A DNA stretch of 64,000 nucleotides. Origin: a virus. The stretch spans positions 1 through 64,000 of IMG/VR virus record IMGVR_UViG_3300042564_004221; one strand, written 5' to 3'. A program made the translations under genes and the position numbers. The stretch's first letter is position 1. Each line of letters starts with the position of its first letter. A model generated the notes under the pieces. It was given only the letters and a program-made list of their open reading frames with translations, did no database searches and was not told the origin of the DNA. Shown here piece after piece: positions 9,073-53,396 of the stretch.

Positions 9073-9121
9073 ATTTTAAATTCTTCTTATAAGTATAATA
9101 TTTTATAGTTTTTCATATCAA

Positions 9122-9769: not shown

Positions 9770-9773
9770 ATTG

Positions 9774-10001
9774 TTATGGACAAGTCGTTACGGTTTCTTC
9801 ACCTGAAATTATGCATCCATTCGCATCAATCAATTTTAACATATAAGCACTTGATGTGTCATATGGGATTGGTATGTCAAAAATGTAAGGAGCGGAAGTG
9901 ATTGTTGTCATATAGAAACAACCTGAACCACCAGGTTGACATATATAAACGTCATATGGTGATTGTCCTGTAATACTGCTTATTGTTACTTGTACTGCCA
10001 T
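9774..10001 (-). CDS. Small single-domain fibre protein (75 aa)
   Basis: The 75-residue product is one copy of the module that forms the N-terminus of the 215-residue protein: VTISSITGQSPYDVYICQPG, a central PYIFDIPIP, and KLIDANGCIISG near the end, finishing TTCP. It has four Cys. The 90-residue protein at 36170-36442 and the N-terminal part of the protein at 35077-36105 look like more distant relatives. It is probably a stand-alone decoration or adaptor subunit of the tail. It lies 4 bases upstream of the 215-residue gene. Confidence 0.55.
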   Translation of the reverse strand: MAVQVTISSITGQSPYDVYICQPGGSGCFYMTTITSAPYIFDIPIPYDTSSAYMLKLIDANGCIISGEETVTTCP

Positions 10002-10015
10002 TTATTTTATTAATA

Positions 10016-13884: not shown

Positions 13885-13897
13885 ACTTAAATTTAAT

Positions 13898-17338: not shown

Positions 17339-17339
17339 A

Positions 17340-17924
17340 TTATTTTATTTTTTTTTTTACAGGAACTCCAACATAAATACCAGGTTCTTCTATATGTTTA
17401 ACTACTGCACTATTCATACCAATCGTAGACAAACTATGAATTGATAATTTTTCCCTTATTGATGAATTATTTCCCATATAAACTAAGTCATATATTCTTA
17501 CATTCCCTGATACGACTGCACCAGGCATTGCACTAAAATAATCACCTATTTCACAATCGTGTCCAATATGATTACCCCTATTCAATATCGCATGTTTACC
17601 AATTTTTATGTTGGTCGTTAGTATAGAATATGCCCCAATAAAACTTCCTTCACCAATTTCAACATCACCCATCAACAGAGCGGTTGGGTGAATGAAGGTA
17701 AAAAATTGAGTGTCTTTTGGTAATCTTTGAACAATATCATATCTGTCTCTTGAGTCCGCAACCGCAATCATTGCAATATGTTTTTTTGGGTCAAATAACG
17801 ATAATGGTAATACGTCTTCACTATGTTTAACATATTGGTCATCAACAAATCTATCCAATTTAACACCCATCTGAGCCATCACTTCTTTTGCGTGGCCACC
17901 ATTACCAATTAATACTTTTTTCAT
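17340..17924 (-). CDS. NeuD/PglD-family sugar O- or N-acyltransferase
   Basis: The 194-residue product has the family's two parts. The first is an N-terminal Rossmann-like sugar-nucleotide domain (VLIGNGGHAKEV, then IAVADSRDRYDIVQRL). The second is a C-terminal hexapeptide beta-helix (VEIGEGSFIGA through YVGVPVKKK). The catalytic His is in NRGNHIGHDCEIGDY (H122). PglD and NeuD acetylate UDP-sugars or sialic acid before they are added to glycans. This indicates that the phage makes or adjusts a sugar donor itself. It is packed between a glycosyltransferase and a transferase/methyltransferase fusion. Confidence 0.75.
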   Translation of the reverse strand: MKKVLIGNGGHAKEVMAQMGVKLDRFVDDQYVKHSEDVLPLSLFDPKKHIAMIAVADSRDRYDIVQRLPKDTQFFTFIHPTALLMGDVEIGEGSFIGAYSILTTNIKIGKHAILNRGNHIGHDCEIGDYFSAMPGAVVSGNVRIYDLVYMGNNSSIREKLSIHSLSTIGMNSAVVKHIEEPGIYVGVPVKKKIK

Positions 17925-17928
17925 ATCT

Positions 17929-19299
17929 TTATTTTATAAACCACCAAGTGCCAAACCATTCTTTAGTTACATTTGGTGTATATCCGTGTTTATTACAAAA
18001 TTCATCAACCGCTGGGTTAACACCAAAAACTCCATTGTATATTGGAGTTCCGTCTAACATTGAAGTATAGATGTATTTGTCCTTTCTATTTGGAGCAAAG
18101 TTGGGGTCGTTATACCAATCCATATTAATATAATCGTGTCCTGAAAAAACACCACCTTTTTTTAACTTTGGAAACCACAGATTAATGTCCTCAACAACAA
18201 AATCGTATGCGTGGTTTGCATCAATAAAGATAAAATCTAACGATTCATCTTGGAACATATCAGCAGCAACTTCAGAGGTTGCTCTTACCATAATACCTCT
18301 ATCTTCAAGTCCTTTAATACTTTCCATAGTTTCTTGGTAAGCGTCAATATGGTCTTTATGATTACTAGCATCTTCGTATTCAACACCTAAGGGTCTCCAA
18401 ACATCCACCATATAGAGCGTTCCTCCCCAATTATTTAAAATGTTTTTGGAAAACTCTCCCTTAAACACACCAATCTCAACACCTTTACCATTTGGGATTA
18501 AATTATTTAAATCCCTAATTAAATCGTCTCTATGATTATACATAATATTTTTTTTGTAATCTTTTATTTTTTTTATTTTTGAATCTCCATTAAAAGTGTC
18601 CCCTATGAAATGACAGAATTTTCCATTCAAATTAATTTCATCGTTAAAATTTTCATCAACAATATAATAAAAATTTTTAAACGGAACAATTGTGTCAGTA
18701 TTTACTAAATTTTTTTTATTGAAGTAATGATTAATATATGGTTGTTCGGTAAATTGTCCTTCAGGATATACATCTCTTAAATTCAAAACATTCATAAAAT
18801 GTTCCCTTATTTTTGAACTATTTTTGAACATCATTAACCCGCTATTAAACGTATGTATCTTATTTTCTTTAAAAAAGGATATGTCTTCATTAGTGTAATT
18901 ACCTAAATTAAAAGGTTTTCTAAAATGATTTTCAAAGCTATAATCTTCAACAACCGCATATAATTTATCGTCTTCACACTCTTTAAAAATTACATCTAAT
19001 TTTAAATTTGCCCACACATCGGAATCCATATACATTAAATTGTCATAACCTAAAATATTTGCATCAAATATTCTTAATCTATTAAACGCGACATCATCTG
19101 TAGTTGTATTTTCCACCATATGGTAATATACATTTGGTCTTTCATAGTCTTTAAAGTTTTTTTCATAAAATTCTCTATCAGTAATGATGAGAACATCCTG
19201 ATTAGTATTATAAACATCTAACTTTAATACAGACAATTTTAACAATTCTGCATAAGAATCATTAAATCCAACCGAATAATATACCAAATTTTTACTCAT
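17929..19299 (-). CDS. Fusion of GT8-like glycosyltransferase and class I methyltransferase
   Basis: Residues 1-about 240 look like a GT-A glycosyltransferase of the GT8 kind: VYYSVGFNDSYAELL, FNRLRIFD and the metal-binding MYMDSDVWAN. Residues about 250-456 form a SAM-dependent methyltransferase: GVEIGVFKGEFSKNIL, LYMVDVWRP, LDFIFIDANHAYDFV and GGVFSGHDY. The second domain matches the Methyltransf_24 type often found with capsule or O-antigen genes. Joining transfer of a sugar and its methylation in one chain suggests a capping step. It overlaps the next gene by 4 bases. Confidence 0.7.
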   Translation of the reverse strand: MSKNLVYYSVGFNDSYAELLKLSVLKLDVYNTNQDVLIITDREFYEKNFKDYERPNVYYHMVENTTTDDVAFNRLRIFDANILGYDNLMYMDSDVWANLKLDVIFKECEDDKLYAVVEDYSFENHFRKPFNLGNYTNEDISFFKENKIHTFNSGLMMFKNSSKIREHFMNVLNLRDVYPEGQFTEQPYINHYFNKKNLVNTDTIVPFKNFYYIVDENFNDEINLNGKFCHFIGDTFNGDSKIKKIKDYKKNIMYNHRDDLIRDLNNLIPNGKGVEIGVFKGEFSKNILNNWGGTLYMVDVWRPLGVEYEDASNHKDHIDAYQETMESIKGLEDRGIMVRATSEVAADMFQDESLDFIFIDANHAYDFVVEDINLWFPKLKKGGVFSGHDYINMDWYNDPNFAPNRKDKYIYTSMLDGTPIYNGVFGVNPAVDEFCNKHGYTPNVTKEWFGTWWFIK

Positions 19300-19940
19300 C
19301 GCTTATATATCTCATATTTTGATAAATCAGGATATGGTAATTCCAAGTCCTCATTGTGTTTTTTGGTTCCATCTAAATTGTAGAATTGAGCCATCATTAA
19401 TAATCCTCTTGCAGATAACTCTGGCATCATATAAAAGTTCCAACCCAACATATCAAAATTATCATCGTGATAAGAACATTCCCTTCTTCCACTAAATCTG
19501 GCTCTTTTAAACCATAACATTGCTTGATAATCATCGGTTATGATTGCACCTCCTTTACTTAACTTTAATGTCTTATACGGACCTGTAAATGAAAGACACA
19601 TATGTGATTTTGGAATATACATATTGGCTGTAAATCTTAAAGCCGAGTCCCAAACATTACTTGGTGATAGTTGATATGCTCCTTTAATCTTATCACCTTC
19701 AACAGGTGTAAAATTAACCTTTAGTCCCGCATGAATAATCTCACAAGGTACAGATGGATATGTCTTGGATGGACAATCAATCTTTTTGTTTGTTAAACTC
19801 TTCTTTATATTTTTTTCGTAATACAACGCTAAAAATAGTGCATTACTCATATTATCTAATGCAACTGCATAGGGTGCTCCTGTATAATCACAAAGAGACT
19901 TTTCAAAATCTTCCGTTATTTTATGAACGCCTTGAGCCAT
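19296..19940 (-). CDS. Short DegT/DnrJ/EryC1-like aminotransferase (C-terminal domain absent)
   Basis: The 214-residue product resembles the large domain of DegT-type PLP enzymes: FEKSLCDYTGAPYAVALDN at the start, TYPSVPCEIIHAG, a PLP-contacting Asp in VWDSALRF (D98), and SFTGPYKTLKLSKGGAIIT, which contains the expected Schiff-base Lys (K123 or K126). Full-length family members have about 370 residues. The small C-terminal domain is missing and the gene stops cleanly against the next one, so this is a compact form rather than a recent frameshift. It may be inactive, act as a subunit, or make an amino-sugar. Confidence 0.6.
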   Translation of the reverse strand: MAQGVHKITEDFEKSLCDYTGAPYAVALDNMSNALFLALYYEKNIKKSLTNKKIDCPSKTYPSVPCEIIHAGLKVNFTPVEGDKIKGAYQLSPSNVWDSALRFTANMYIPKSHMCLSFTGPYKTLKLSKGGAIITDDYQAMLWFKRARFSGRRECSYHDDNFDMLGWNFYMMPELSARGLLMMAQFYNLDGTKKHNEDLELPYPDLSKYEIYKR

Positions 19941-19941
19941 A

Positions 19942-20631
19942 TTAATTTCTATTATCTATATAAACTATAATCTGTTCGTAGTAGTTAATAAAGTGTTCAT
20001 TCCATAAATCCCATTTAATATCAACACCATCCACAGAGAAAACCTCAATATTTGGGAACAATCTTAGGTATGTATCCCTGAAAATTCTAAACTTTTGTTT
20101 TTCTTCTTCACCACTTAAATGCCATTCACCAACAATTTTTCTAACATTTTCCTTAATCCAAAAAATATTCTTGTTGTTGAAAACACTATATTCACCGCCC
20201 TCACAATCGGTCTTAATAAAATCTATTTTAGTTATATTAAACTCCTCTCTAATATTATCAAAGGTTGTGGTTTGAGCCATTTTCATTCCATCCTCCACAC
20301 CGAATAAGTTAAGTTCAAAATAACCTTCAACATCACTAATACCTTTATTTATGATTCTAACAGGACCATCTTTAACATTTTTGGTTAATGTTTCAATTTC
20401 TTGATGGCTAGGTTCTATACAATAAACTTGTTTTGGATTTTTATTTAGAATAGAATAGGTAAATGGTCCAACACTTGAACCGAAATCAAATACAATATCA
20501 CCTTCTTCTACTTCGAAGAATCTTTCATAAGCTTTTTGAATGAAAATCTCTTCTATTATTTGACTTTTATGGTATTTCGAGGACTCTGAATCCCCTTCCA
20601 TCCAACCCCAATCAAAATTATCTAAATTCAT
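19942..20631 (-). CDS. FkbM-family methyltransferase
   Basis: This is a class I methyltransferase of about 229 residues with the FkbM features: VFDFGSSVGPFTYSIL (SAM glycine loop), VYCIEPSHQEIETL and IDFIKTDCEGGEYSVF (the D-x-E-G-x-E hallmark). It probably O-methylates a sugar. I chose the ATG at 20631. A TTG at 20649 would add six residues but is less likely. It begins the minus-strand sugar operon and is divergent from the plus-strand glycosyltransferase gene that starts 50 bases away. Confidence 0.75.
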   Translation of the reverse strand: MNLDNFDWGWMEGDSESSKYHKSQIIEEIFIQKAYERFFEVEEGDIVFDFGSSVGPFTYSILNKNPKQVYCIEPSHQEIETLTKNVKDGPVRIINKGISDVEGYFELNLFGVEDGMKMAQTTTFDNIREEFNITKIDFIKTDCEGGEYSVFNNKNIFWIKENVRKIVGEWHLSGEEEKQKFRIFRDTYLRLFPNIEVFSVDGVDIKWDLWNEHFINYYEQIIVYIDNRN

Positions 20632-20681
20632 ATCTTGAATAATAGACAAATTTTCTTATTTTTCAACTAAAACAAACATCT

Positions 20682-22964
20682 ATGTTAAAAATATTTGGAC
20701 ACGGGTCTTACATCGGAGATACAGGTTATAACCATCACACAAGGGATTTTTTCAGACATTTATCAAGTCACGCTCAAATTAAATTTAGAAATTTCACTGT
20801 CGGAAGCAGTTGGAATGGAATGAGTAGTGAACCTCACAATAAAGAGTATTATTTTAACAGCACTGACAGACAAATATTATACGAACAAGTCCTTTGGAAT
20901 AACGATGGAGGTAGGGATAATCATAAAATATATTCAAACTATTCTAAAGAATTTGTTCCCGATGTTAATATTGTTTTATGTGAAACAAACCATCACTTAT
21001 TTTATGATGAATATAATGGTCCAAAAATTGCATATAATGTTTGGGAATCAACCCTACAACCTCCACACTATTTTAACAAACTAAAAGAGTTTGACGAGAT
21101 GTGGGTTCCATCCAAATGGCAAAGGGATATGACAATTGCTCAAGGTTATGACCCAAATAAGATTAAGGTTGTTCCCGAAGGTGTTGATGTTAAAACTTTT
21201 TTCCCTGAAGAAACATCCCACGAATTAACCTCAGATGGAAGATTTAAATTCTTCTTGGCAGGTAGATGGGATTATAGAAAATCAATTAAAGAAATTATTG
21301 AAACATTCTTGAAAACTTTTGATAAAGATGAACCTGTTGACTTAATTGTTTCAATTGATAATCCGTTTTCGAATGACGGGTTAAACACAACAGAAGAAAG
21401 ATTGGAACACTATGGATTTACCGACGATAGAATCAAAATATTACATTTCCCACCAAGAGAAGATTACGTTAAGATATTAAAATCTTGTGATGCGTTTGTA
21501 TCTTGTGCAAGAGCTGAAGGTTGGAATTTACCTTTAATCGAAGCAATGGCATGTGGTACACCTTCCATTTATTCAAATTGTTCGGGTCAATTAGAGTTTG
21601 CCGAAGGTAAGGGTATTCCAGTTAAAATATCACACGAATTACCTGTTAGTGCCAGTTCATACAATCACTTCAATGATAATGTTGGAAACTATTACGAACC
21701 TGATTATAACGATTTGGGAAAACAAATGTGGGATGTGGTAACTAACTATCAATCGCACAAACAAAGAGCGTTAGAAGAGTCCGAAATCATTAGAAAAGAG
21801 TTTAGTTGGGAGCATATTGCCGAGATTGGAATTGAAACCCTAAATGATTTTATGGAAAGAAAACCTTGGCTAAACAAACCAAAGAAAGAAAATAGAGTTA
21901 TCGTCAGTTATTTGGACGGACCTAGAGTTGAGGTGTTGGGGGATGAAAATAAAGATTATCATATTGAATTTATCAATGGTGATACTGATGAAGTAATCCA
22001 CTCCCAAACCATATCAAACAATATGTGGGTTGCGGCAGGTAAGAAATACTACATACCTTGGATTATAAAAATCAATGGACATATCTATGATGTCTTTGAC
22101 TTAACAAATAAAACTGTCCTAATTTCATTAGAATCAAAATCTTTAGGTGATACAATTGCTTGGGTTCCATACGCAGTTGAACTCCAAAAGAAATACAATT
22201 GTAAGGTAATAGTTTCTACATTTATGAATGAACTATTCAAAGGATTGGAAGAATATAAAGATATTGAATTTATAAAACCTGGTCAATCTTGTGATTGTTA
22301 TGTAATTTATAGGATTGGTTGGTTTAGAAAGGACAACACTTGGACTGATTTTGACAGACAACCAAATCAACCTAACTTAATTCCCCTCCAACAAACCGCA
22401 ACCGATATTCTTGGACTTGAATTTAAAGAACTAAATTATGGGCTTAATTTTGTTAAAAAAGAACGTCCAATTAAGAAGGATTATGTTGTATTTGGACCTA
22501 GTGCAACTTCAGGTTGTAAAGAATGGGTTTACGCCAATTGGGTTTCCTTATCAAAGATGATTAAAGAACTTGGTTATGAAGTGGTTATATTAACAAAAGT
22601 TCCTTATAATATTGAGGGAGTGATTAATGTTTGGGGAGAACCTTTAGAGGTTGTTGCCAATTATTTAAAACACTCGGAAGCATTTATTGGTTTAGGTTCG
22701 GGTTTATCTTGGTTTAATTGGGCGTTGGGTAAACACACATTCATGATTAACGGATTTGCCGAACCAGGACACGAATTTACATCAAACTTAACAAGGATAT
22801 ACAACGACAATACTTGTATTTTTTGTTGGAATGATGAGGTATTTGTTTTTGATAGTGGTGATTGGGATTGGTGTCCTGTGTATAAAGGAACCAAAAAACA
22901 ACATATATGTCAAAAGTCTATTACACCATTACAAGTATTTAACCATCTTTTAACCAAAATATAA
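20682..22964 (+). CDS. Two-domain glycosyltransferase: GT4-like plus BAHT/TibC-like heptosyltransferase
   Basis: Residues 1-about 400 are a GT-B glycosyltransferase of the GT4 type: FLAGRWDYRKS and an E-x7-E in AEGWNLPLIEAMACGTP (near 279-287). Residues about 480-760 are GT9-like: LESKSLGDTIAWVPYAVE, FGPSATSGCKEW and SEAFIGLGSGLSWFNWAL. They end in a four-Cys motif, C-x2-C-x15-C-x11-C (about 711-741), followed by KSITP. This is the metal-finger signature of bacterial autotransporter heptosyltransferases such as TibC, which glycosylate Ser on repeat-rich adhesins using ADP-heptose. It is one of few plus-strand genes. Its stop overlaps the start of the next gene (TAATG). Confidence 0.8.
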   Translation: MLKIFGHGSYIGDTGYNHHTRDFFRHLSSHAQIKFRNFTVGSSWNGMSSEPHNKEYYFNSTDRQILYEQVLWNNDGGRDNHKIYSNYSKEFVPDVNIVLCETNHHLFYDEYNGPKIAYNVWESTLQPPHYFNKLKEFDEMWVPSKWQRDMTIAQGYDPNKIKVVPEGVDVKTFFPEETSHELTSDGRFKFFLAGRWDYRKSIKEIIETFLKTFDKDEPVDLIVSIDNPFSNDGLNTTEERLEHYGFTDDRIKILHFPPREDYVKILKSCDAFVSCARAEGWNLPLIEAMACGTPSIYSNCSGQLEFAEGKGIPVKISHELPVSASSYNHFNDNVGNYYEPDYNDLGKQMWDVVTNYQSHKQRALEESEIIRKEFSWEHIAEIGIETLNDFMERKPWLNKPKKENRVIVSYLDGPRVEVLGDENKDYHIEFINGDTDEVIHSQTISNNMWVAAGKKYYIPWIIKINGHIYDVFDLTNKTVLISLESKSLGDTIAWVPYAVELQKKYNCKVIVSTFMNELFKGLEEYKDIEFIKPGQSCDCYVIYRIGWFRKDNTWTDFDRQPNQPNLIPLQQTATDILGLEFKELNYGLNFVKKERPIKKDYVVFGPSATSGCKEWVYANWVSLSKMIKELGYEVVILTKVPYNIEGVINVWGEPLEVVANYLKHSEAFIGLGSGLSWFNWALGKHTFMINGFAEPGHEFTSNLTRIYNDNTCIFCWNDEVFVFDSGDWDWCPVYKGTKKQHICQKSITPLQVFNHLLTKI

Positions 22965-23842
22965 TGAACACAATTTTAATAATACTTAACTCAACTTCAT
23001 TGGGAGATACAATTGGCGTAATGCCGTGTATTGAAAAATTTATATCAAATACGACCGATAATGTCTTGGTTAAAACAAACCCAAGATACAATTCATTATT
23101 CACAAAATCTTATCCTATGGTTAAGTTCTTTGAGGAGGGAATGTTTTTTGACAAACAAATCTCATTAGATTATAACTTTAATCTACCCCTTCAAACAGGA
23201 TTTGCAAATCAACTTGGATTTATGGATTGGGAATATGTTCAACCTAAAGTTGATGTACCTGATAGTGAAAGACCAATAAAGGGGAAATATGTTACCATTA
23301 GTATCCACTCAACCTCTCAATTAAAATATTGGAATCACCCGTTAGGAATTAAAACTCAACCCTTATCACCAAATTGGAATGACCTTTGCGGGTTGTTAAG
23401 AAAAAATGGTTTAACTCCTGTTATTGTTGAAAGGGATGAAATGTTTGGTATTCCTCCATATCGAAATGGTATGCCAAACAAAGCAAATAAAAAAATAGAT
23501 TTATCTATTGATGAAACAATAAGATACATTCAACACTCCGAATTCTTTATTGGATTATCTTCAGGAATATCTTGGTTGGCACATGCAATGGATAAAAAAG
23601 TTGCAATGATTTCTAATTTCTCGGAAGATTGGCATGAGTTTGATTTGTCTTCTGAAAATTATAAAAGAATTACCAACAAATCAGTATGTAATGGATGTTG
23701 GAATAGAATAAATAAAGATTTTTCTTTTGATGCTGGTGATTGGTATTGGTGCCCAAAACATAGAGATACTGAACGCCAATTTGAATGCCATACATCAATA
23801 ACACCTGAAATGGTGTTTGATAACATTAAAGATTGGATTTAA
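22964..23842 (+). CDS. BAHT/TibC-like O-glycosyltransferase (heptosyltransferase family)
   Basis: The 292-residue product is a single-domain relative of the second half of its upstream neighbour: LNSTSLGDTIGVMPCIEK at the start, SEFFIGLSSGISWLAHAM, and a Cys motif C-x2-C-x17-C-x11-C (about 242-275) followed by TSITP. It lacks the large N-terminal helical part of full TibC. The family adds heptose to Ser of adhesins. The gene ends at 23842 and the giant Ser/Gly fibre gene on the other strand ends at 23843, so the two abut tail to tail. This makes the fibre an attractive substrate. No heptose-synthesis gene is present in the window. Confidence 0.75.
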   Translation: MNTILIILNSTSLGDTIGVMPCIEKFISNTTDNVLVKTNPRYNSLFTKSYPMVKFFEEGMFFDKQISLDYNFNLPLQTGFANQLGFMDWEYVQPKVDVPDSERPIKGKYVTISIHSTSQLKYWNHPLGIKTQPLSPNWNDLCGLLRKNGLTPVIVERDEMFGIPPYRNGMPNKANKKIDLSIDETIRYIQHSEFFIGLSSGISWLAHAMDKKVAMISNFSEDWHEFDLSSENYKRITNKSVCNGCWNRINKDFSFDAGDWYWCPKHRDTERQFECHTSITPEMVFDNIKDWI

Positions 23843-26800
23843 CTATTGAATAACCCTTAATTGATAAGAAAAATCAAGTTTTGATGAATTAGTATCATCT
23901 GAAACAACAACAAGAGCAACCGCTGCTTGGTATTGACACGAACTTGAGATTGAATATTGTTTTTCAAAATCAAAACAAACCATACCAGTTGCACTTATTG
24001 AAACACTATGCCCTGACTCAGAATCTCCAAAAAGTTGAATATAATCAACATCTGTACCTTGGCCGCCATTAGTAAATAAGTCACAATCGGCAATTAAAAT
24101 ATTGGCATATAGTTCGGCACTTGTATCGGTAAGATACCCATAAAAATAAGCGTTTCCACAAAGTCTAAATGTCAAGCTGGTTGTCCCATCTGCTATTACA
24201 ATTGGCGCAAAATTATGTAAGTGGTCTTTTGGCGCTGGCGTTGGAGCAACTAGTTCATCCCAAACACCACCATTCCAACCTTCGTTTGCGTTTCCATAAT
24301 AATAATCAGTAATCACTGGATTGGCAGAATCAGGAGTCACCATACTAGATATAGTTCCAGATGTTACCTGAACAACTGCGGTTACTTCTGCTGCTCCTGA
24401 TGTTCCTGAACTACCACTTGAACCAGCCGCTCCTGATGCTCCTGAAGAACCACTTGAACCTGAACTTCCGCTAGCACCTGACGAACCACTTGAACCAGCT
24501 GCTCCTGATGCTCCTGAAGAACCCGAACTACCATTAGTTCCTGAACTTCCACTTGAACCTGAACGTCCACTTGAACCCGAACTTCCTGAAGAACCACTTG
24601 AACCAGATGCTCCTGAACTTCCACTTGAACCCGAACTACCTGAAGAACCGCTTGAACCAGATGTTCCTGAAGAACCCGAAGAACCGCTAGTACCACTTGA
24701 ACCTGAGCTACCACTTGTTCCACTTGAACCCGAACTTCCGTTGGCTCCTGATGTTCCCGAAGAACCGCTTGAGCCAGATGTTCCACTTGAACCCGATGTT
24801 CCTGAACTTCCGCTAGTTCCCGAAGAACCTGAACGCCCACTTGAACCTGAGCTACCTGAAGAACCGCTAGTTCCACTTGAACCCGAAGAACCATTAGCTC
24901 CGCTCGTTCCCGAAGAACCAGAACTACCACTTGTTCCAGAACTACCTGAACTACCATTGGCACCGCTAGTTCCACTTGAACCTGAACTTCCGCTAGTCCC
25001 TGATGAACCAGATGTTCCGCTTGTTCCCGAAGAACCGCTTGAACCTGATGTTCCTGATGAACCAGAACTTCCATTTGCTCCACTCGTCCCTGAGCTACCT
25101 GAAGAACCAGATGTTCCTGACGAACCACTTGTTCCTGAAGAACCTGAACGTCCACTTGAACCAGACGAACCTGAGCTACCTGAAGAACCGCTTGAACCTG
25201 ATGTTCCTGATGAACCTGAACTACCATTAGCACCACTTGTTCCACTTGAGCCTGAAGAACCGCTAGTACCCGATGAACCTGAAGAACCGTTAATACCACT
25301 TGTTCCTGAACTGCCCGAAGAACCACTTGTTCCACTTGAGCCCGATGTCCCTGAACTTCCACTAGTCCCTGATGAACCCGAACGTCCACTTGAACCTGAT
25401 GAACCACTTGAACCAGATGTTCCTGATGAGCCAGAAGAACCACTTGTTCCGCTTGAACCTGAACTACCGTTAGCACCACTTGTTCCGCTTGAACCTGAAG
25501 AACCACTTGTTCCACTTGAACCCGAAGAACCATTGGCACCGCTTGTTCCCGAACTACCTGAAGAACCAGATGTTCCACTTGAACCTGAAGTTCCTGAGCT
25601 TCCGCTAGTACCTGAAGAACCTGAACGTCCGCTTGAACCAGATGAACCACTTGAACCTGAAGTTCCACTTGAACCCGAAGAACCACTTGAGCCAGAACTT
25701 CCACTTGTTCCCGAACTACCTGAAGAACCAGAAGTTCCTGATGAACCTGAAGAACCATTAGCACCGCTTGTTCCTGAACTACCCGAACTTCCACTTGTAC
25801 CCGATGAACCTGAGCTACCACTTGTACCTGAAGAACCGCTAGTTCCACTTGTTCCCGAACTACCTGAACTACCCGAAGAGCCACTTGTTCCCGAACTACC
25901 CGAACTACCATTAGCACCACTTGTTCCACTTGAACCTGAACTTCCGCTAGTCCCTGAAGAACCTGAACTTCCGCTTGTTCCTGAACTACCCGAAGAACCA
26001 CTAGTACCTGATGAACCTGAAGTTCCTGAACTTCCGCTAGTTCCTGATGAACCTGAACGTCCACTTGAACCACTTGAACCTGAGCTTCCGCTAACACCCG
26101 ATGAGCCGCTTGAGCCAGAACTTCCACTTGTTCCCGAACTACCTGAAGAACCACTTGAACCCGAACTACCACTTGTTCCTGAACTTCCAGAACTACCATT
26201 AGCACCACTTGTTCCTGATGAACCTGAACTACCACTTGTTCCACTTGAGCCCGAACTTCCATTGGCACCCGACGTTCCACTTGAACCCGAAGAACCGCTT
26301 GTTCCGCTTGAACCAGAAGTTCCTGAACTACCACTAGTTCCAGAAGAACCTGAACGTCCACTTGAGCCTGATGAGCCCGAACTACCTGAAGAACCTGAAG
26401 TTCCACTTGAGCCCGAAGAACCACTTGAACCCGATGTTCCTGACGAACCACTTGTTCCGCTTGAACCTGAACTACCATTGGCACCTGAAGTCCCTGAACT
26501 ACCACTCGAACCACTTGTTCCTGATGAACCTGAGCTACCATTGGCTCCACTTGTTCCCGAAGAACCTGAAGAACCGCTAGTACCCGATGAACCTGAAGAA
26601 CCGTTAATACCACTCGTTCCTGAACTGCCCGAAGAACCACTTGTTCCACTTGAGCCCGATGTCCCTGAACTTCCACTAGTCCCTGATGAACCCGAACGTC
26701 CACTTGAGCCTGATGAGCCCGAACTACCTGATGTTCCACTTGAGCCAGATGAACCTGAAGTTCCTGATGAACCTGAACTACCATTGACTCCACTTGTTCC

Positions 26801-29800
26801 TGATGAACCACTTGAACCAGATGTTCCCGAAGAACCTGAACTTCCACTTGTTCCTGATGAACCTGAACTTCCATTGACACCTGACGTTCCACTTGAACCT
26901 GAACTACCGCTAGTACCTGATGAACCTGAAGAACCACTTGTTCCACTTGAACCCGAAGAACCATTGGCACCGCTTGTTCCCGAACTACCTGAAGAACCAG
27001 ATGTTCCACTTGAACCTGAAGTTCCTGAGCTTCCGCTAGTACCTGAAGAACCTGAACGTCCACTAGAGCCCGAAGAACCGCTTGTTCCGCTTGAACCTGA
27101 GGTTCCACTTGTACCTGATGAACCCGAACTTCCACTTGTTCCACTTGAGCCACTTGTTCCACTTGAGCCTGATGAACCAGATGTTCCTGAGCTTCCGCTA
27201 GTTCCTGAAGAACCACTTGAACCTGATGTTCCACTTGAACCTGAACTACCATTGGCACCGCTTGTTCCTGAAGAACCACTTGACCCAGATGTTCCACTTG
27301 AACCCGAACTACCACTTGTTCCAGAACTACCCGAACTACCATTAACACCTGATGTTCCCGAAGAACCTGATGAACCGCTAGTTCCACTTGAACCTGAAGT
27401 TCCTGAGCTTCCGCTAGTTCCTGAAGAACCTGAACGTCCACTTGAACCTGAGCTACCTGAACTTCCACTAGAGCCCGAAGAACCACTTGTTCCACTTGAA
27501 CCTGAACTTCCATTGGTTCCGCTTGTTCCTGAAGAGCCCGAACTACCACTTGTTCCAGAAGAACCTGAACGTCCACTTGAGCCTGATGAACCTGAACTAC
27601 CTGAAGAACCAGATGTTCCCGAACTACCTGAGCTTCCACTTGAACCTGAGGTTCCTGATGAACCACTTGTACCTGAAGAACCTGAGCTACCATTAGCACC
27701 TGAAATTCCACTTGAACCGCTTGAACCAGATGTTCCCGAAGAACCTGAACTTCCACTAGTACCTGATGAACCAGAAGAACCACTTGTTCCACTTGAGCCC
27801 GAACTTCCACTAGTACCTGAAGAACCACTTGTTCCACTTGAGCCTGAAGTTCCTGAGCTTCCGCTAGTACCTGAAGAACCTGAACGTCCGCTTGAACCAG
27901 ATGAACCACTTGAACCCGAACTTCCACTTGTACCCGATGAACCTGAGCTACCACTTGTACCTGAAGAACCGCTAGTTCCACTTGTTCCCGAACTACCTGA
28001 ACTACCATTAGCACCTGAGGTTCCAGATGAACCACTTGAACCAGATGTTCCCGAAGAACCTGATGAACCGCTAGTTCCACTTGAACCTGAACTACCATTG
28101 GCACCTGACGTTCCACTTGAGCCTGAAGAACCGCTTGTTCCACTTGAGCCTGAAGTTCCTGAGCTTCCGCTAGTTCCTGAAGAACCTGAACGTCCACTTG
28201 AGCCTGATGAACCTGAACTACCTGAAGAACCAGATGTTCCTGACGAACCACTTGTTCCCGAACTACCCGAAGAACCACTTGTTCCTGAAGTTCCACTTGA
28301 ACCGCTTGAACCAGAAGTTCCTGAGCTTCCGCTAGTTCCTGAAGAACCTGAACGTCCACTTGAACCTGAGCTACCTGAACTTCCACTAGAGCCCGAAGAA
28401 CCGCTTGTTCCGCTTGAACCTGAGGTTCCACTTGTTCCACTTGAGCCTGATGTTCCACTTGAACCTGAACTACCATTGGCGCCGCTTGTTCCTGAAGAAC
28501 CACTTGACCCAGATGTTCCTGAAGAGCCCGAACTACCATTAGCTCCTGATGTTCCACTTGAGCCCGAAGAACCGCTTGTTCCACTTGAGCCTGAAGTTCC
28601 TGAGCTTCCGCTAGTTCCTGAAGAACCTGAACGTCCACTTGAACCTGAGCTACCTGAAGAACCGCTAGTACCACTCGAACCTGAACTACCACTTGTTCCT
28701 GAGCTACCTGAACTTCCATTGGCTCCGCTTGTTCCACTTGAGCCAGATGAACCTGAAGTTCCTGATGAACCTGAGCTACCATTGGCTCCACTTGTTCCCG
28801 AAGAACCTGAAGTTCCACTTGAACCCGAACTACCATTAGCTCCGCTTGTTCCTGATGAACCACTTGACCCTGATGTTCCACTAGTACCTGATGAACCCGA
28901 ACTTCCACTTGTTCCACTTGAGCCCGATGTCCCTGAACTTCCACTTGTTCCTGAAGAACCTGAACGTCCGCTTGAGCCTGAACTACCTGAAGAACCACTT
29001 GTTCCTGAACTACCTGAAGAACCATTGGCCCCGCTCGTTCCACTTGAGCCTGAACTTCCACTAGTTCCTGAACTACCCGAAGAACCACTTGACCCAGATG
29101 AACCTGAAGTTCCTGACGAACCTGAACTACCATTTACACCTGATGTTCCAGATGAACCACTTGAGCCCGAAGTTCCTGATGAGCCTGAACTACCATTAGC
29201 ACCACTTGTTCCGCTTGAACCAGATGAACCTGAAGTTCCTGAGCCACCCGAAGAACCACTTGTTCCTGAAGAACCTGAAGAACCATTGGCTCCTGAAGTC
29301 CCTGAACTACCTGAAGAACCAGATGTTCCACTTGAGCCTGAAGTTCCTGAGCTTCCGCTAGTACCTGATGAACCTGAACGTCCACTTGAACCTGATGAAC
29401 CACTTGAACCAGATGTTCCTGATGAGCCAGAAGAACCACTTGTTCCGCTTGAACCTGAACTACCGTTAGCACCACTTGTTCCGCTTGAACCTGAACTTCC
29501 ACTAGTACCTGAAGAACCACTTGTTCCTGATGAACCAGAACTTCCACTTGAACCTGCAGTCCCACTTGAGCCCGAAGAACCACTTGTTCCGCTTGAACCC
29601 GATGTTCCTGAACTTCCACTAGTTCCAGAAGAACCTGAACGTCCACTCGAACCAGAACTACCTGAACTTCCACTTGAACCCGAACTACCCGAACCTGATG
29701 TTCCTGAAGAACCACTTGAGCCAGATGTTCCTGAAGAACCACTTGAGCCTGAACTACCTGAACTTCCACTTGAACCGCTAGTTCCTGAAGAACCATCTCC

Positions 29801-32800
29801 ACCTGAAGCACCTTCTAAATTACTCTCCCAACTACAAAAAGTCCCTGTTCCACTTATTGATGTTACTTCTAATACTAATGCACCTGTTGAAGGATTATAA
29901 CTAACAACTTTACCTGTAAAATAATTCGTTACGCTATTTGCAATTAAAACGTTTTGTCCAATAGTATATGACAGTCCTGCCCCTACATTTAAACTAACAT
30001 TAAGACCGATAGTTAAACCACTTAAAGTTATACAGTCCGTAGACAATCCAGAATAATCAGAAGATGTTCCGCTAGTTCCTGAAGAACCACTTGAGCCAGA
30101 TGTTCCTGAAGAACCAGATGTTCCTGACGAACCACTTGAACCTGAGCTACCATTTGTTCCGCTAGAACCTGAAGAACCGCTCGTACCTGATGAACCTGAA
30201 CTACCATTAATACCTGATGTTCCTGAGCTACCACTTGAACCTGATGAACCTGATGAACCTGAACTTCCACTTGTTCCTGAAGAACCACTAGTTCCCGATG
30301 AACCACTTGAACCTGAAGTACCCGAGCTACCACTTGACCCTGATGTTCCAGAAGAACCTGAACTTCCACTTGTTCCTGAAGAACCACTTGAACCTGATGT
30401 TCCTGAACTACCTGAAGAACCGCTGGTTCCACTTGAGCCAGATGTTCCACTTGTTCCAGAACTACCTGAACTACCATTGGTACCACTTGAACCCGAACTT
30501 CCACTAGTTCCTGATGAACCCGAACTTCCACTAGTTCCTGATAAACCTGAACTACCTGAAGTTCCACTTGTTCCGCTTGAGCCTGAAGAACCAGATGTTC
30601 CTGAACTTCCGCTAGTACCTGATGAACCCGATGTTCCACTTGAGCCTGAACGTCCACTAGAACCTGAAGAGCCAGATGTTCCTGAAGAACCTGAGCTTCC
30701 ACTTGCTCCTGATGAACCACTTGAACCAGATGTTCCTGATGAACCTGAACTTCCATTAGCACCACTTGTTCCAGAACTACCCGAAGAACCTGAAGTTCCA
30801 CTTGAACCTGAAGAGCCAGAGGTTCCGCTTGAACCTGAACTACCATTGGCGCCGCTTGTTCCTGAAGAACCACTTGACCCAGATGTTCCTGAAGAGCCCG
30901 AACTACCACTTGTTCCAGAACTACCCGAACTACCATTAGCTCCTGATGTTCCTGACGAACCACTTGAACCTGAAGTTCCTGAACTTCCACTAGTACCTGA
31001 AGAACCTGAACGTCCGCTTGAACCAGATGAACCAGAACTACCTGAAGAACCGCTAGTTCCACTTGACCCTGAACTACCGCTAGTGCCTGATGACCCTGAA
31101 CTACCGCTAGTTCCACTTGACCCTGAACTTCCACTTGTTCCTGATGAACCTGAACTTCCATTAACACCACTTGTTCCACTTGAACCTGAACTTCCGCTAG
31201 TACCTGAAGAACCAGATGTTCCACTTGAGCCCGAACTACCATTAGCTCCTGATGTTCCCGAAGAACCACTTGACCCAGATGTTCCTGACGAACCACTTGT
31301 TCCGCTTGAACCAGATGTTCCTGACGAACCACTTGTTCCGCTTGAACCTGAACTACCATTCGCACCTGAGGTTCCACTAGTACCTGATGAACCTGAAGTT
31401 CCTGAACTACCACTAGTTCCAGAAGAACCTGAACGTCCACTTGAACCAGACGAACCACTTGAACCTGAACTACCACTCGAACCGCTTGTTCCTGATGAAC
31501 CAGAAGTTCCTGAAGAACCCGATGTTCCACTTGTTCCAGAACTACCTGAACTACCATTCGCACCTGAGGTTCCACTTGAGCCAGATGAACCTGAAGTTCC
31601 TGAGCTACCACTTGTACCTGAAGTTCCTGATGAACCTGAGCTACCATTGATTCCACTTGTTCCTGAACTACCCGAAGAACCGCTTGTTCCGTTTGTTCCG
31701 CTTGAACCAGATGTTCCTGAAGAACCTGAGGTTCCGCTAGTTCCTGAAGAACCTGAGGTTCCGCTAGTTCCTGATGAACCTGAACGTCCACTTGAACCAG
31801 AACTACCTGAAGAGCCAGATGTTCCTGATGAGCCAGAACTTCCACTTGTTCCCGATGAACCTGAACTACCACTAGTTCCTGATGAACCAGAACTTCCATT
31901 TGCTCCGCTTGAACCTGAAGTTCCTGAGCTACCACTCGTTCCTGAAGAACCGCTTGAACCAGATGTTCCGCTTGAACCCGAAGAACCATTAGCACCTGAT
32001 GTTCCCGAACTTCCACTTGAACCGCTAGTTCCTGAAGAACCCGAACTTCCATTAACACCACTTGTTCCACTTGAACCTGAACTACCGCTCGTACCCGAAG
32101 AACCTGAGCTACCTGAACCTGATGTTCCCGATGAGCCCGAACTTCCATTTGTTCCTGAAGAACCTGATGAACCGCTAGTTCCAGAACTACCTGAACTACC
32201 ATTAACACCACTTGTCCCACTTGAACCAGAACTACCGCTTGTGCCAGAAGAACCATCTCCTCCTGACGCTCCTTCTAAATTAGTTTCCCAATTACAAAAA
32301 GTTCCCGTTCCTGATATTGCGGTTACTTGTAAAACTAAAACACCTGTTGAAGGATTATAACTAATAACTTTACCTGTAAAATAATTACTTACACTATTTG
32401 CAACAAGTACACTTTGTCCTATTGTATAAGAAAGATTTGTACTTGCGGTTAAAGTAATATTTAACCCAACGGTTAATCCACTTAAAGTTATACAATCCGT
32501 AGATAATCCAGAATAATCAGAAGAGGTTCCGCTAGTTCCTGAAGAACCACTTGAACCTGAAGTTCCACTTGAGCCAGATGAACCTGAACTTCCATTAGTT
32601 CCGCTAGAGCCACTTGAACCAGAAGTTCCTGATGAACCACTTGAACCAGAGATTCCTGAAGAACCTGAGCTTCCGCTAGTTCCCGAAGAACCACTAGAAC
32701 CCGATGTTCCTGAACTACCACTTGTTCCTGATGAACCACTTGAACCCGATGTTCCCGAACTTCCTGAACTACCATTAACACCACTTGTTCCCGAAGAACC

Positions 32801-35077
32801 GCTTGAGCCAGAAGTTCCTGATGAACCTGAACTTCCACTTGTACCTGAAGAGCCACTTGAGCCTGAAGTTCCACTTGAGCCTGAAGAACCGCTTGTTCCA
32901 CTTGAACCTGAAGTTCCCGATGAACCTGAACTACCACTTATACCAGATGAACCTGAACTACCACTTATACCAGATGAACCTGAACTACCATTAGTCCCTG
33001 AAGAACCACTTGAACCAGATGTTCCTGAAGAGCCACTTGTTCCTGAAGAGCCACTTGTTCCTGACGAGCCACTTGTTCCTGATGAACCTGAAGAACCACT
33101 TGAGCCTGAACCTGATGTTCCAGATGAACCTGAACTTCCACTAGTTCCTGACGAACCACTTGAACCAGATGTCCCTGAACTACCACTTGAACCTGAGCTT
33201 CCACTTAAACCTGAACTACCGCTTGTCCCTGAACTACCCGAACTTCCGCTAGTTCCTGAAGAACCCGAACTGCCAGAACCTGATGTTCCTGATGAACCCG
33301 AACTTCCGCTAGTTCCTGAAGAACCACTTGTCCCTGAACTACCCGAACTTCCACTATTACCTGAAGAACCACTTGAACCTGATGTTCCCGAAGAACCTGA
33401 ACTTCCACTAGTACCCGAACTACCTGATGTTCCTGAACTTCCGCTAGTTCCTGATGAACCCGAACGACCGCTTGAGCCAGACGAACCTGAACTTCCACTA
33501 GTACCTGAAGAACCTGAACTTCCGCTAGTTCCTGATGAACCCGAAGTTCCTGATGAACCTGAGCTACCACCACTACCTGAACTTCCGCTAGTACCTGAAG
33601 AACCAGAGGTTCCTGATGAACCTGAACTTCCGTTAGTACCCGAACTACCTGATGTTCCGCTTGAACCACTTGTCCCTGAACTACCACTTGAACCTGATGT
33701 TCCAGATGAACCTGAACTTCCACCAGTCCCTGATGAACCACTTGAACCTGATGTTCCTGAACTTCCTGAACCAGATGTTCCCGAAGAACCTGAGCTACCT
33801 GAACCTGATGTTCCTGATGAACCCGAACTTCCACTTGTTCCTGAAGAACCACTTGAACCTGATGTTCCTGAAGAACCTGAACTACCCGAAGAACCATCTC
33901 CTCCTGAAGCTCCCTCCAAATTAGTATCCCAAGTACAAAAAGTACCTGTTCCTGATATTGCAGTTACTTGTAATACTAAAACACCCGTTAAAGGATTATA
34001 ACTAACAACTTGACCCGTGAAATAGTTAGTGACACTATTTGCAACAAGCACACTTTGTCCTATGGTATAAGAAAGTGAAAGTCCTACATTTAAGGTAGTA
34101 TTTAATCCAACTGTTAATCCGCTTAAAGTTATACAATCCGTAGATGAACCAGCATAATCGGGAGAAGTTCCACTTGTACCTGAACTACCACTTGAACCAC
34201 TTGAACCTGAAGAGCCACTTGAGCCCGAAGAGCCCGAGCTTCCACTTGAACCAGCATTTGTTGTAAATCCTGTTATTGTAACAACACCCCCATAGTTATT
34301 GACTAAGGTTAATGTTTCCGCAGAGCTACTAAACGTACCTCCTGTAATATATGTGTCGGTTAAACCTGTAATTGTTACGGTTCCACCTGTGGCATTATAA
34401 AGTTCTAAATTACCCGCATCATAATCCAAAGTACCACCTGTAACACCCGCCCCTGAACCTGATGTGATACCTGTGACTTGAATTACTGAACCTGTATTTG
34501 TAGTAAATAAAAGTGTATTACCCGAATAGGTTCCACCTGTAATAACAGGGTATGAACCATTAAAAATAATCCAATTTGAATCGTTTCTTGTTGCACCATT
34601 TTGACCTTCAATTGTTGAGCCAGTCCATGCGGTAATTAAATCAACACCTTGAGGTGTTGTTGACCTAACATTTGCACCATAATCACTAAAGATTACTGTA
34701 TTTGTTGCACCTGTCGCATTATCCCAAATGGTTTGATAATTGTCAATTTGAAATTGATAAAAAGTATTGCTCTCATACACATAAGCCAACATACCCAATC
34801 TTCTTCTACCTGTTGACCAATAGTCTGAGTTTAAAGTTAAGATATCAGGTGAATATCCAGCTCCCGTACCTTTAAAAAATTGAATAGGTATCGTTGAACC
34901 TGTTATAAAACCTGTTTGTCCTGAAAAGTTCCATACCAAGTCAGATAGGTTGGCAACCTCCATATAACCACCTGTATTAGATACAGAATAGGTTATACCA
35001 AAATTAGAAGTTGGTTCTAATGATAGTTGGAAACTTTGTCTCGACGCCGAGAGTGGATTATTATATGGAAAACTCAT
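23843..35077 (-). CDS. Giant collagen-like (Gly-X-Y) tail fibre, 3744 aa
   Basis: The largest gene here. Residues 1-275 form a beta-rich N-terminal region that probably attaches to the tail. From about 275 to 3560 it is nearly all Gly-X-Y triplets (GSS, GTS, with GAN, GVN, GIN and GRS), interrupted by three copies of a domain of about 90 residues (near 304-395, 852-943 and 1674-1762). Residues 3561-3744 form a non-repetitive C-terminal tip with several Cys, likely for receptor binding. There is almost no Pro in the repeat, so if a collagen triple helix forms it must be stabilised otherwise, perhaps by glycans on the roughly 2000 Ser/Thr. Arg appears about every 60-160 residues in GRSGSSG. Its ATG overlaps the previous stop (TAATG). 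Confidence 0.8.
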   Translation of the reverse strand: MSFPYNNPLSASRQSFQLSLEPTSNFGITYSVSNTGGYMEVANLSDLVWNFSGQTGFITGSTIPIQFFKGTGAGYSPDILTLNSDYWSTGRRRLGMLAYVYESNTFYQFQIDNYQTIWDNATGATNTVIFSDYGANVRSTTPQGVDLITAWTGSTIEGQNGATRNDSNWIIFNGSYPVITGGTYSGNTLLFTTNTGSVIQVTGITSGSGAGVTGGTLDYDAGNLELYNATGGTVTITGLTDTYITGGTFSSSAETLTLVNNYGGVVTITGFTTNAGSSGSSGSSGSSGSSGSSGSSGSSGTSGTSPDYAGSSTDCITLSGLTVGLNTTLNVGLSLSYTIGQSVLVANSVTNYFTGQVVSYNPLTGVLVLQVTAISGTGTFCTWDTNLEGASGGDGSSGSSGSSGTSGSSGSSGTSGSSGSSGTSGSGSSGSSGTSGSGSSGTSGSSGSSGTGGSSGSSGTSGSSGSSGTSGSSGTSGSSGTNGSSGSSGTSGSSGTSGSSGSGGSSGSSGTSGSSGTSGSSGSSGTSGSSGSSGSSGRSGSSGTSGSSGTSGSSGTSGSSGSSGTSGSSGSSGNSGSSGSSGTSGSSGTSGSSGSSGTSGSGSSGSSGTSGSSGSSGTSGSSGLSGSSGSSGSSGTSGSSGSSGTSGSSGSSGTSGSGSSGSSGSSGTSGSSGTSGSSGTSGSSGTSGSSGSSGTNGSSGSSGISGSSGSSGISGSSGSSGTSGSSGTSGSSGSSGTSGSSGSSGTSGSSGSSGTSGSSGSSGTSGVNGSSGSSGTSGSSGSSGTSGSSGTSGSSGSSGTSGSSGSSGISGSSGSSGTSGSSGSSGTNGSSGSSGSSGTSGSSGSSGTSGTSSDYSGLSTDCITLSGLTVGLNITLTASTNLSYTIGQSVLVANSVSNYFTGKVISYNPSTGVLVLQVTAISGTGTFCNWETNLEGASGGDGSSGTSGSSGSSGTSGVNGSSGSSGTSGSSGSSGTNGSSGSSGTSGSGSSGSSGTSGSSGSSGTSGVNGSSGSSGTSGSSGSSGTSGANGSSGSSGTSGSSGSSGTSGSSGTSGSSGANGSSGSSGTSGSSGSSGTSGSSGSSGTSGSSGSSGSSGRSGSSGTSGTSGSSGTSGTSGSSGTSGSSGTNGTSGSSGSSGTSGINGSSGSSGTSGTSGSSGTSGSSGSSGTSGANGSSGSSGTSGTSGSSGTSGSSGTSGSSGSSGSSGSSGSSGRSGSSGTSGSSGTSGSSGTSGTSGANGSSGSSGTSGSSGTSGSSGTSGSSGTSGSSGSSGTSGANGSSGSSGTSGSSGTSGSSGSSGTSGVNGSSGSSGTSGSSGSSGTSGSSGSSGTSGSSGSSGTSGSSGSSGSSGSSGRSGSSGTSGSSGTSGSSGSSGTSGANGSSGSSGTSGSSGSSGTSGSSGSSGTSGANGSSGSSGTSGSSGSSGTSGSSGSSGTSGANGSSGSSGTSGSSGSSGASGSSGSSGTSGSSGSSGRSGSSGTSGSSGTSGSSGTSGSSGSSGTSGTSGSSGLSGTSGSSGSSGTSGSSGSSGTNGSSGSSGTSGTSGSSGTSGSSGSSGTSGSSGSSGTSGSSGSSGTSGSSGSSGTSGSSGSSGTSGSSGTSGSSGSSGSSGSSGSSGTSGINGSSGSSGTSGSSGSSGTNGSSGSSGSSGTSGSSGTSGSSGSSGTSGTSSDYSGLSTDCITLSGLTIGLNVSLNVGAGLSYTIGQNVLIANSVTNYFTGKVVSYNPSTGALVLEVTSISGTGTFCSWESNLEGASGGDGSSGTSGSSGSSGSSGSSGSSGTSGSSGSSGTSGSGSSGSSGSSGSSGSSGRSGSSGTSGSSGTSGSSGTSGSSGSSGTAGSSGSSGSSGTSGSSGTSGSSGSSGTSGANGSSGSSGTSGSSGSSGTSGSSGSSGSSGRSGSSGTSGSSGTSGSSGTSGSSGSSGTSGANGSSGSSGTSGSSGGSGTSGSSGSSGTSGANGSSGSSGTSGSSGSSGTSGVNGSSGSSGTSGSSGSSGSSGSSGTSGSSGSSGTSGANGSSGSSGTSGSSGSSGSSGRSGSSGTSGSSGTSGSSGTSGSSGSSGTSGTSGSSGSSGTSGANGSSGSSGTSGSSGTSGANGSSGSSGTSGSSGSSGTSGANGSSGSSGTSGSSGSSGTSGSSGSSGSSGRSGSSGTSGSSGTSGSSGTSGSSGSSGTSGANGSSGSSGTSGSSGSSGTSGANGSSGSSGTSGSSGTSGTSGSSGTSGSSGSSGSSGSSGSSGRSGSSGTSGSSGTSGSSGSSGTSGTSGSSGSSGTSGSSGTSGSSGSSGSSGSSGRSGSSGTSGSSGTSGSSGTSGSSGSSGTSGANGSSGSSGTSGSSGSSGTSGSSGSSGTSGANGSSGSSGTSGTSGSSGTSGSSGSSGTSGSSGSSGSSGSSGRSGSSGTSGSSGTSGSSGTSGSSGTSGSSGSSGTSGSSGSSGTSGSSGSSGTSGSSGSSGISGANGSSGSSGTSGSSGTSGSSGSSGSSGTSGSSGSSGSSGSSGRSGSSGTSGSSGSSGTSGTNGSSGSSGTSGSSGSSGSSGSSGSSGRSGSSGTSGSSGTSGSSGTSGSSGSSGTSGVNGSSGSSGTSGSSGSSGTSGSSGSSGTSGANGSSGSSGTSGSSGSSGTSGSSGTSGSSGSSGTSGSSGTSGSSGSSGTSGTSGSSGTSGSSGSSGRSGSSGTSGSSGTSGSSGTSGSSGSSGTSGANGSSGSSGTSGSSGSSGTSGSSGSSGTSGVNGSSGSSGTSGSSGSSGTSGSSGSSGTSGVNGSSGSSGTSGSSGSSGTSGSSGSSGSSGRSGSSGTSGSSGTSGSSGTSGSSGSSGTSGINGSSGSSGTSGSSGSSGTSGANGSSGSSGTSGSSGSSGTSGANGSSGSSGTSGSSGTSGSSGSSGSSGTSGSSGSSGSSGSSGRSGSSGTSGSSGTSGSSGTSGSSGSSGTSGANGSSGSSGTSGSSGSSGTSGANGSSGSSGTSGSSGSSGSSGSSGTSGSSGSSGSSGVSGSSGSSGSSGRSGSSGTSGSSGTSGSSGTSGSSGSSGTSGSSGSSGTSGSSGSSGTSGANGSSGSSGTSGSSGSSGSSGTSGTSGSSGTSGSSGSSGTSGSSGSSGTSGANGSSGSSGTSGSSGSSGTSGSSGSSGSSGSSGTSGSSGSSGSSGRSGSSGTSGSSGTSGSSGTSGSSGSSGTSGANGSSGSSGTSGSSGSSGTSGANGSSGSSGTSGSSGSSGTSGSSGSSGSSGRSGSSGTSGSSGTSGSSGTSGSSGSSGTSGINGSSGSSGTSGSSGSSGTSGANGSSGSSGTSGSSGSSGSSGSSGSSGRSGSSGTSGSSGTSGSSGSSGTSGANGSSGSSGTSGSSGSSGTSGTSGSSGTSGSSGSSGTSGANGSSGSSGTSGSSGSSGTSGANGSSGSSGTSGSSGSSGSSGRSGSSGTSGSSGTSGSSGTSGSSGSSGTSGANGSSGSSGTSGSSGSSGTSGSSGSSGTSGSSGSSGSSGSSGSSGASGSSGSSGSSGSSGRSGSSGSSGTNGSSGSSGASGAAGSSGSSGASGSSGSSGSSGASGAAGSSGSSGTSGAAEVTAVVQVTSGTISSMVTPDSANPVITDYYYGNANEGWNGGVWDELVAPTPAPKDHLHNFAPIVIADGTTSLTFRLCGNAYFYGYLTDTSAELYANILIADCDLFTNGGQGTDVDYIQLFGDSESGHSVSISATGMVCFDFEKQYSISSSCQYQAAVALVVVSDDTNSSKLDFSYQLRVIQ
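24400..29780 (-). repeat. Long Gly-X-Y coding repeat tract (third block)
   Basis: About 5.4 kb of degenerate 9- to 18-base units encode GSS/GTS/GAN triplets. Ser codons alternate between the AGT and TCN families, so the DNA is much more varied than the protein. A larger unit is visible, starting at the single Arg codon (plus-strand cctgaacgtccacttgaacc or close variants) and recurring every 200-500 bases. This suggests growth by unequal exchange of longer units. Confidence 0.8.
29785..30065 (-). repeat. Internal domain repeat, copy 3
   Basis: This is the third of three direct copies of a segment of about 270 bases that encodes a 90-residue domain (contains STDCITLSGLTIGLN and ends NLEGASGGDG). 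The others are at about 32250-32525 and 33892-34165. All are flanked by Gly-X-Y repeats. Differences are scattered, many at third codon positions. Confidence 0.75.
32250..32525 (-). repeat. Internal domain repeat, copy 2
   Basis: This is the middle copy (STDCITLSGLTVGLN, then NLSYTIGQSVLVANS). It is closest in sequence to copy 1 at about 33892-34165. It has the same boundaries in the Gly-X-Y repeat as the other copies. Confidence 0.75.
33892..34165 (-). repeat. Internal domain repeat, copy 1
   Basis: This is the first copy in reading order, after a short Gly-X-Y block of about 30 residues. It has the same two Cys and the same SYTIGQSVLVANSV core as the others. It may act as a joint or trimerisation node between repeat blocks. 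Confidence 0.75.
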
Positions 35078-53391: not shown

Positions 53392-53396
53392 TTATA

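Follow-up and report, generated by a model that had tools for sequence, protein, structure and literature searches.

A proline-free collagen-like tail fibre of a metagenomic phage and the adjacent TibC-type genes whose products may O-glycosylate it

The stretch of DNA analysed here (the window; 64,000 nucleotides belonging to a 99,789-base IMG/VR virus record) encodes on its minus strand a collagen-like tail fibre of 3744 residues (23843..35077), recognised by the ORF call, the triplet count, and the Pfam and PHROG matches, with a Gly-X-Y region devoid of proline. Facing it are two genes for relatives of TibC, the enzyme that moves heptose onto Ser residues of autotransporters (PMC4358343). 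The explanation held here with moderate confidence is that the protein is a tail fibre, probably trimeric, O-glycosylated at its Ser/Thr residues by the phage's own TibC-type enzymes and forming a stiff collagen-like rod or a bottle-brush; the fibre as the enzyme substrate, the trimer, the triple helix, and the role of the sugar are all inferred.

By strict count, the region spanning residues 276–3563 (24389..34252, minus strand) contains 997 Gly-X-Y triplets, i.e., 2991 residues, distributed over 12 runs, in agreement with the approximately 3000 residues of Ser/Thr-built Gly-X-Y sequence which a preceding sequence-only reading had noted in the 3744-residue protein. The dominant triplets are GSS (608) and GTS (293), followed by GAN (35), GRS (23), GTN (9), GVN (8), GAS (5), GIS and GIN (4 each), GAA (3), and a few others; together, Ser and Thr account for 1848 residues of the repeat. 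Pro, Asp, Glu, Lys, His, Phe, Trp, Tyr, Cys, Met, and Gln are absent from all 2991 residues. The 17 Pro residues of the protein (predicted mass 315 kDa) lie outside the repeat, which bears out the earlier remark on the near absence of proline. The sole charged side chain noted in the repeat is that of Arg (23 residues); its spacing, previously described as one per 60–160 residues, is approached in the distal half (gaps of 45–144), whereas the gaps in the proximal half extend up to 560 residues. Likewise, the confinement of Asn to GAN, GVN, GIN, and GTN holds for nearly all Asn residues, with a single exception in position X of a GNS triplet. The register, described before as strict, is indeed unbroken over 539 triplets in the longest run (residues 1947–3563; 24389..29239, minus strand), but all of its interruptions, i.e., three folded domains of ca. 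89 residues and a handful of short breaks (mostly GSG), reside before residue 1947. Ahead of the repeat lies an N-terminal head of 275 residues, and behind it a C-terminal tail of 181. The Pfam Collagen profile (PF01391) scores 1230 bits on the fibre against a cut-off of 27.2; Pro or charged pairs in positions X and Y, the usual stabilisers of collagen lying outside the Pfam definition, are not found in the repeat. As to the codon usage within 24389-34252, the Arg residues of the repeat are encoded solely by CGT (23 codons), in contrast to the AGA that predominates in three large tail genes, and TCC does not occur once among the 1545 Ser codons of the repeat. An antisense ORF of 1719 residues was rejected as a gene, being the mirror of the repeat.

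Since the DNA is of low complexity and contigs often break in it, an assembly error or a non-coding repeat had to be considered, the former having been raised already in the sequence-only reading. This explanation is hardly credible: another contig (IMGVR_UViG_3300042868_008205), assembled independently, matches our record base for base along 10 kb upstream and on into the fibre gene for 6492 nt, where it ends, and the longest exact direct repeat is 141 bp, although the final 4.7 kb of the gene are backed by one assembly. In 14 protein-identical units of 31 residues, 39% of the Gly, 52% of the Ser, and 42% of the Thr codons are different, to be compared with 58, 73, and 58%, respectively, at saturation, while a few unit pairs differ by just 0–3 nt. 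The identical independent contig taken together with the codon divergence of protein-identical units speaks against an artefact of assembly or drift, as do the many relatives of the fibre (see below). Judging from these codon patterns, the repeat units are old and subject to selection at the protein level, with exchange among them still going on.

The N-terminal head (residues 1–275; 34253..35077, minus strand) is conserved at 73–84% identity in three relatives and has homologues in four IMG/VR contigs, with no relatives in the phage collection; its probable role is the attachment to the virion. The three inserted domains, all encoded on the minus strand, occupy residues 306–394 (33896..34162), 853–941 (32255..32521), and 1673–1761 (29795..30061). 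The first of them was modelled with AlphaFold2 as a small beta-barrel (pLDDT 95.7), and the other two are further copies of it. The domain recurs in 21 further loci, nearly all of them within the same class of Ser/Thr fibres. Foldseek returned no matches to the model at E<=0.001, and the best VIA-align hit (Z 8.0) was a baseplate domain of JBD30, the rest being generic small barrels; since these structural matches are weak, the domain is named here just “small beta-barrel”, and its Pfam match to LSM12 is probably a fold-level likeness. The C-terminal tail domain (residues 3564–3744; 23846..24388, minus strand) is the probable tip of the fibre. Its sole homologue found (60% identity) is in locus L044, which was reached through the search with the neighbouring glycosyltransferase gene; the pattern search of IMG/VR and the search of the phage collection yielded none. 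A structure model of this domain built on the two-sequence alignment was set aside (pLDDT 50).

The role of the fibre in the tail or baseplate is supported by its homology and the site of its gene, including the PHROG tail-fibre matches (partly driven by composition), the genes for baseplate J-like (gp6) and gp25 proteins located upstream on the same strand (51553..53873, minus strand), suggestive of a contractile-tail context, and the synteny of the tail module with that of a 190,552-bp contig, G003. In G003, the same locus encodes a fibre of 540 residues with 57 triplets, and the fibre of G207 (2030 residues) has 378 triplets and a different tail, so the stalk length at one locus varies across the relatives from 57 to 997 triplets. 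A stalk and a tip varying behind a kept head are as expected of receptor-binding fibres. Inspection of the sister sequences by eye shows that these fibres terminate in domains resembling the S74 chaperone or in other tail domains. The tail module also encodes a protein (36453-38795) matching PF13573 at 97 bits, the SprB repeat named after a gliding adhesin of Flavobacterium, a possible sign of a Bacteroidota host. Several proteins of the virion module (7297-12190, 35077-36105, and the last part of 36453-38795) contain long Thr-Pro-Thr-Pro tracts, which might be O-glycosylated as well; like tracts occur in the same region of G003. A B12-dependent ribonucleotide reductase (NrdJ-like) is encoded at 54152-56011; the labels of its closest GenBank relatives, “recombinase” or hypothetical, are apparently misannotations.

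The two genes convergent with the fibre gene reside on the plus strand. The first, GT1 (20682..22964; 760 residues), joins a GT4 domain to a protein O-heptosyltransferase domain of the TibC type, and its residues 405–754 align with TibC (PDB 4rap) at E 4.6e-40; it scores 224.5 bits with TIGR04414, above the curated cut-off of 200. The second, GT2 (22964..23842; 292 residues), is another TibC-like catalytic domain (E 6e-27 with TibC; 186.8 bits with TIGR04414, below the cut-off), and its end is 1 nt away from the fibre stop. In TibC, the iron-finger Cys residues 339, 342, 358, and 370 as well as the N-terminal beta-barrel are required for activity, and the D110A variant is catalytically dead (PMC4358343). 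Cys 712, 715, 731, and 743 of GT1 match the iron-finger residues with the same spacing, and its D490 corresponds to D110; in GT2, D15 is the counterpart of the catalytic Asp and C242/245/263/275 form a near-identical Cys set. The alignment of GT1 runs through the N-terminal barrel (PF21129 scores under its cut-off); the barrel is lacking from GT2, a point against the preferred explanation. The activity, sugar donor, and substrate of both proteins are putative assignments by homology and position.

Overall, homology along the full length of TibC and the spacing of the iron-finger Cys (both in GT1), the catalytic Asp, and a Ser-rich repeat protein as the neighbour link these enzymes to TibC and the BAHT family (TIGR04414). 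They differ in being phage-borne, in the fusion of GT1 to GT4, in the presence of a second copy without the N-terminal barrel, and in the lack of the target strand-loop-strand repeats (TIGR04415) anywhere in the 99.8-kb record. The substrate known for the BAHT family has a beta-helix instead of a Gly-X-Y chain, and other Ser/Thr-rich virion proteins of the window may serve as the TibC substrate instead. The search for relatives of GT1 in bacterial genome contigs returned none. Downstream, profile matches further revealed a glycan cassette (12489..20649, minus strand) encoding two FkbM methyltransferases, two hexapeptide acetyltransferases (one of the NeuD type), an esterase, a GT8 fused to a methyltransferase, a DUF6625 protein, and a fragment of a DegT/PseC-like aminotransferase. 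The latter (19296-19940; 214 residues) covers about one fifth of its profile near the start and is probably a truncated or reduced form.

The fibre was not unique, as it might have seemed from a single record. A search of IMG/VR with a degenerate DNA pattern encoding Gly-[Ser/Thr]-[Ser/Thr] 20 times in succession detected at least 120 stretches of proline-free Ser/Thr collagen, some of them in frames exceeding 3000 residues. In the 735-kb phage LR756501.1, three frames match collagen (2816, 2830, and 3488 residues), the first of which is proline-free with 775 triplets. Therefore, the present fibre is a large member of a class, which is, on the sequence evidence, widespread in metagenomic phages. 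LR756501.1 shares with our phage the family of inserted domains and a TibC homologue in the same genome, but its genome encodes several such fibres, the TibC gene is not next to the long ones, and the record is unannotated. A distant relative of our phage by the NrdJ and baseplate genes, Microcystis phage Mel-JY01 (PP395634.1), has a Ser/Thr Gly-X-Y frame of 1016 residues on the plus strand (L409, 1-3049); the annotation of this region consists mainly of hypothetical proteins on the minus strand, antisense to the frame (1-651 and 739-2298), so the fibre gene, cut by the start of the record, seems to have been missed. At its end, a sister contig identical to our record at the DNA level carries a further Ser/Thr Gly-X-Y gene (L033, G001:C1:76515-76861; at least 298 residues, tail ending in GDIYLQYV) sited beyond the end of our record; therefore, the phage probably possesses two such fibres. 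Within incomplete search coverage, no literature on proline-free Ser/Thr Gly-X-Y phage fibres was found.

The occurrence of TibC genes differs between the two types of fibre. Among the IMG/VR matches listed, TIGR04414 was detected in 36 of the 120 Ser/Thr-type records (35 above the cut-off) vs. 0 of the 81 proline-type ones (Fisher p 6.9e-10). The same was true for contigs of at least 50 kb (21/46 vs. 0/18), at GC<0.40 (32/104 vs. 0/20, p 0.0014), and at GC>=0.40 (4/16 vs. 0/61, p 0.0013), i.e., with GC and contig size controlled and lineage controlled only weakly; a part of the co-occurrence may come from shared phage ancestry. By the query used, a TibC homologue is present in 4 of 50,697 annotated GenBank phage records, three of which carry Ser/Thr Gly-X-Y fibres; two of these three, with the same length and match positions, are probably copies of one 735-kb phage, and the third is Mel-JY01. 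Of 18 viral loci with GT1 homologues, Gly-X-Y proteins occur in the fetched flanks of 10, in 8 of the Ser/Thr type, and several of these 8 are convergent and tens of nucleotides apart. The convergent pair recurs with gaps of tens of nucleotides in L041, L042, and L044 and with a 199-nt gap in G207, and at longer range GT1 and the fibre are found together in L037, L040, and G003. Two of the 28 records sharing our UvsX lineage have TibC, both together with collagen (in G207 as the convergent pair), and the other fibre contigs of this lineage mostly break inside the repeat. In contigs of at least 50 kb, the distance from TibC to the fibre is mildly below random (combined p 0.0017); over all contigs, the number of TibC genes within 5 kb of the fibre (11 vs. 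9 expected) is not significant alone. This modest proximity tells against the glycosylated-fibre reading, as does G003, which has kept GT1 alongside a fibre of only 57 triplets. So do the 84 of 120 Ser/Thr records without a TibC gene, many of which are fragments but some exceed 100 kb; hence, the enzyme is not universal.

The latter records also lend themselves to a different reading, in which the collagen triple helix carries no modification and owes its cohesion to the head, the beta-barrels, and the tail alone, the TibC genes acting elsewhere. Such a helix would accord with the strict register and the PF01391 match, and collagens of E. coli prophages do fold as trimers without glycosylation (PMC3368898). 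Even so, it is rather unlikely here, as the authors attributed the stability of the recombinant prophage collagen to its unusually high Pro content (PMC3368898), whereas the repeat has neither Pro nor Lys-Asp/Glu pairs, i.e., none of the known stabilisers. Moreover, the association of TibC with the Ser/Thr type only would be left unexplained.

Gly-Ser sequences are generally flexible, so the repeat might also be conceived as a flexible or polyproline-II-like brush or linker, neither TibC-glycosylated nor triple-helical, with a register stemming from repeat copying and small polar residues. The recent copying evident from the nearly identical units and the wide variation of the stalk at one locus are compatible with this explanation, which is nonetheless unlikely. 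A flexible linker would not need Gly in every third position, which is kept over 539 triplets while the synonymous sites have far diverged; the tails of sister fibres resembling the S74 intramolecular chaperone suggest trimers, and the link with TibC again finds no explanation. Gly-X-X without Pro, a rule which the repeat obeys, also characterises the polyglycine-II bundles of the snow-flea antifreeze protein and of the adhesin tips of some phages, but bundles need turns every few triplets and the runs here extend over hundreds without turns, making this option very improbable.

In the preferred explanation, i.e., the fibre glycosylated by the phage's own enzymes, the head would anchor the fibre to the virion, the Gly-Ser/Thr-Ser region broken by the three small beta-barrels would be the spacer, and the 181-residue tail would be the tip meeting the host. 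GT1 and GT2 would put sugars (heptose, by homology) on some of the 1848 Ser/Thr residues, which the GT4 domain and the products of the nearby cassette might then extend and modify. Glycosylation would yield a stiff, hydrated, protease-resistant rod or brush, with sugars in place of proline; the sequence fits a triple helix and a stiff brush of sugars alike. If fully triple-helical, the repeat would span ca. 855 nm (997 x 3 x 0.286 nm), so the 0.8–0.9 micrometre proposed in the sequence-only reading was arithmetically right. Sugars are not foreign to this fold: in prokaryotic collagens lacking hydroxyproline, Pro, charge, hydration, or sugars are thought to be stabilising (PMC8968730), glycosylation of threonine is named among the stabilising mechanisms (PMC3368898), and Riftia collagen bears galactosyl-Thr (PMC10141479).

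Closest in architecture are EPclA/EPclB of E. coli O157:H7 prophages, with a Gly-X-Y stalk between globular ends; they are trimeric and triple-helical, and a side-tail fibre role was proposed for them from biophysics and electron microscopy (PMC3368898). Still, they are Pro-rich, much shorter, and unglycosylated when recombinant, unlike our fibre with its 997 Pro-free triplets, inserted domains, and O-glycosyltransferase homologues next door. Its X positions are taken by Ser/Thr and Y by Ser, whereas the repeat of the spore collagen BclA is Pro-Thr rich. BclA and related spore collagens likewise combine a collagen-like filament with O-linked sugars and a dedicated glycosyltransferase (PMC8968730, PMC7157674). 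The enzyme of BclA is of another family.

If the preferred explanation holds, the fibre and the TibC-type enzymes would make up a concrete substrate–enzyme pair for protein O-glycosylation in phages, a field with few known cases, and might account for stiffness in a Gly-X-Y chain devoid of proline. By extension, one may tentatively envisage a widespread class of phages bearing proline-free collagens or brushes approaching a micrometre, where sugars added by TibC-type enzymes replace the work of hydroxyproline. If true, this would open a bacterial-expression route to glycan-stabilised collagen and would explain the sugar-modification cassettes found beside the fibre genes in metagenomic huge phages.
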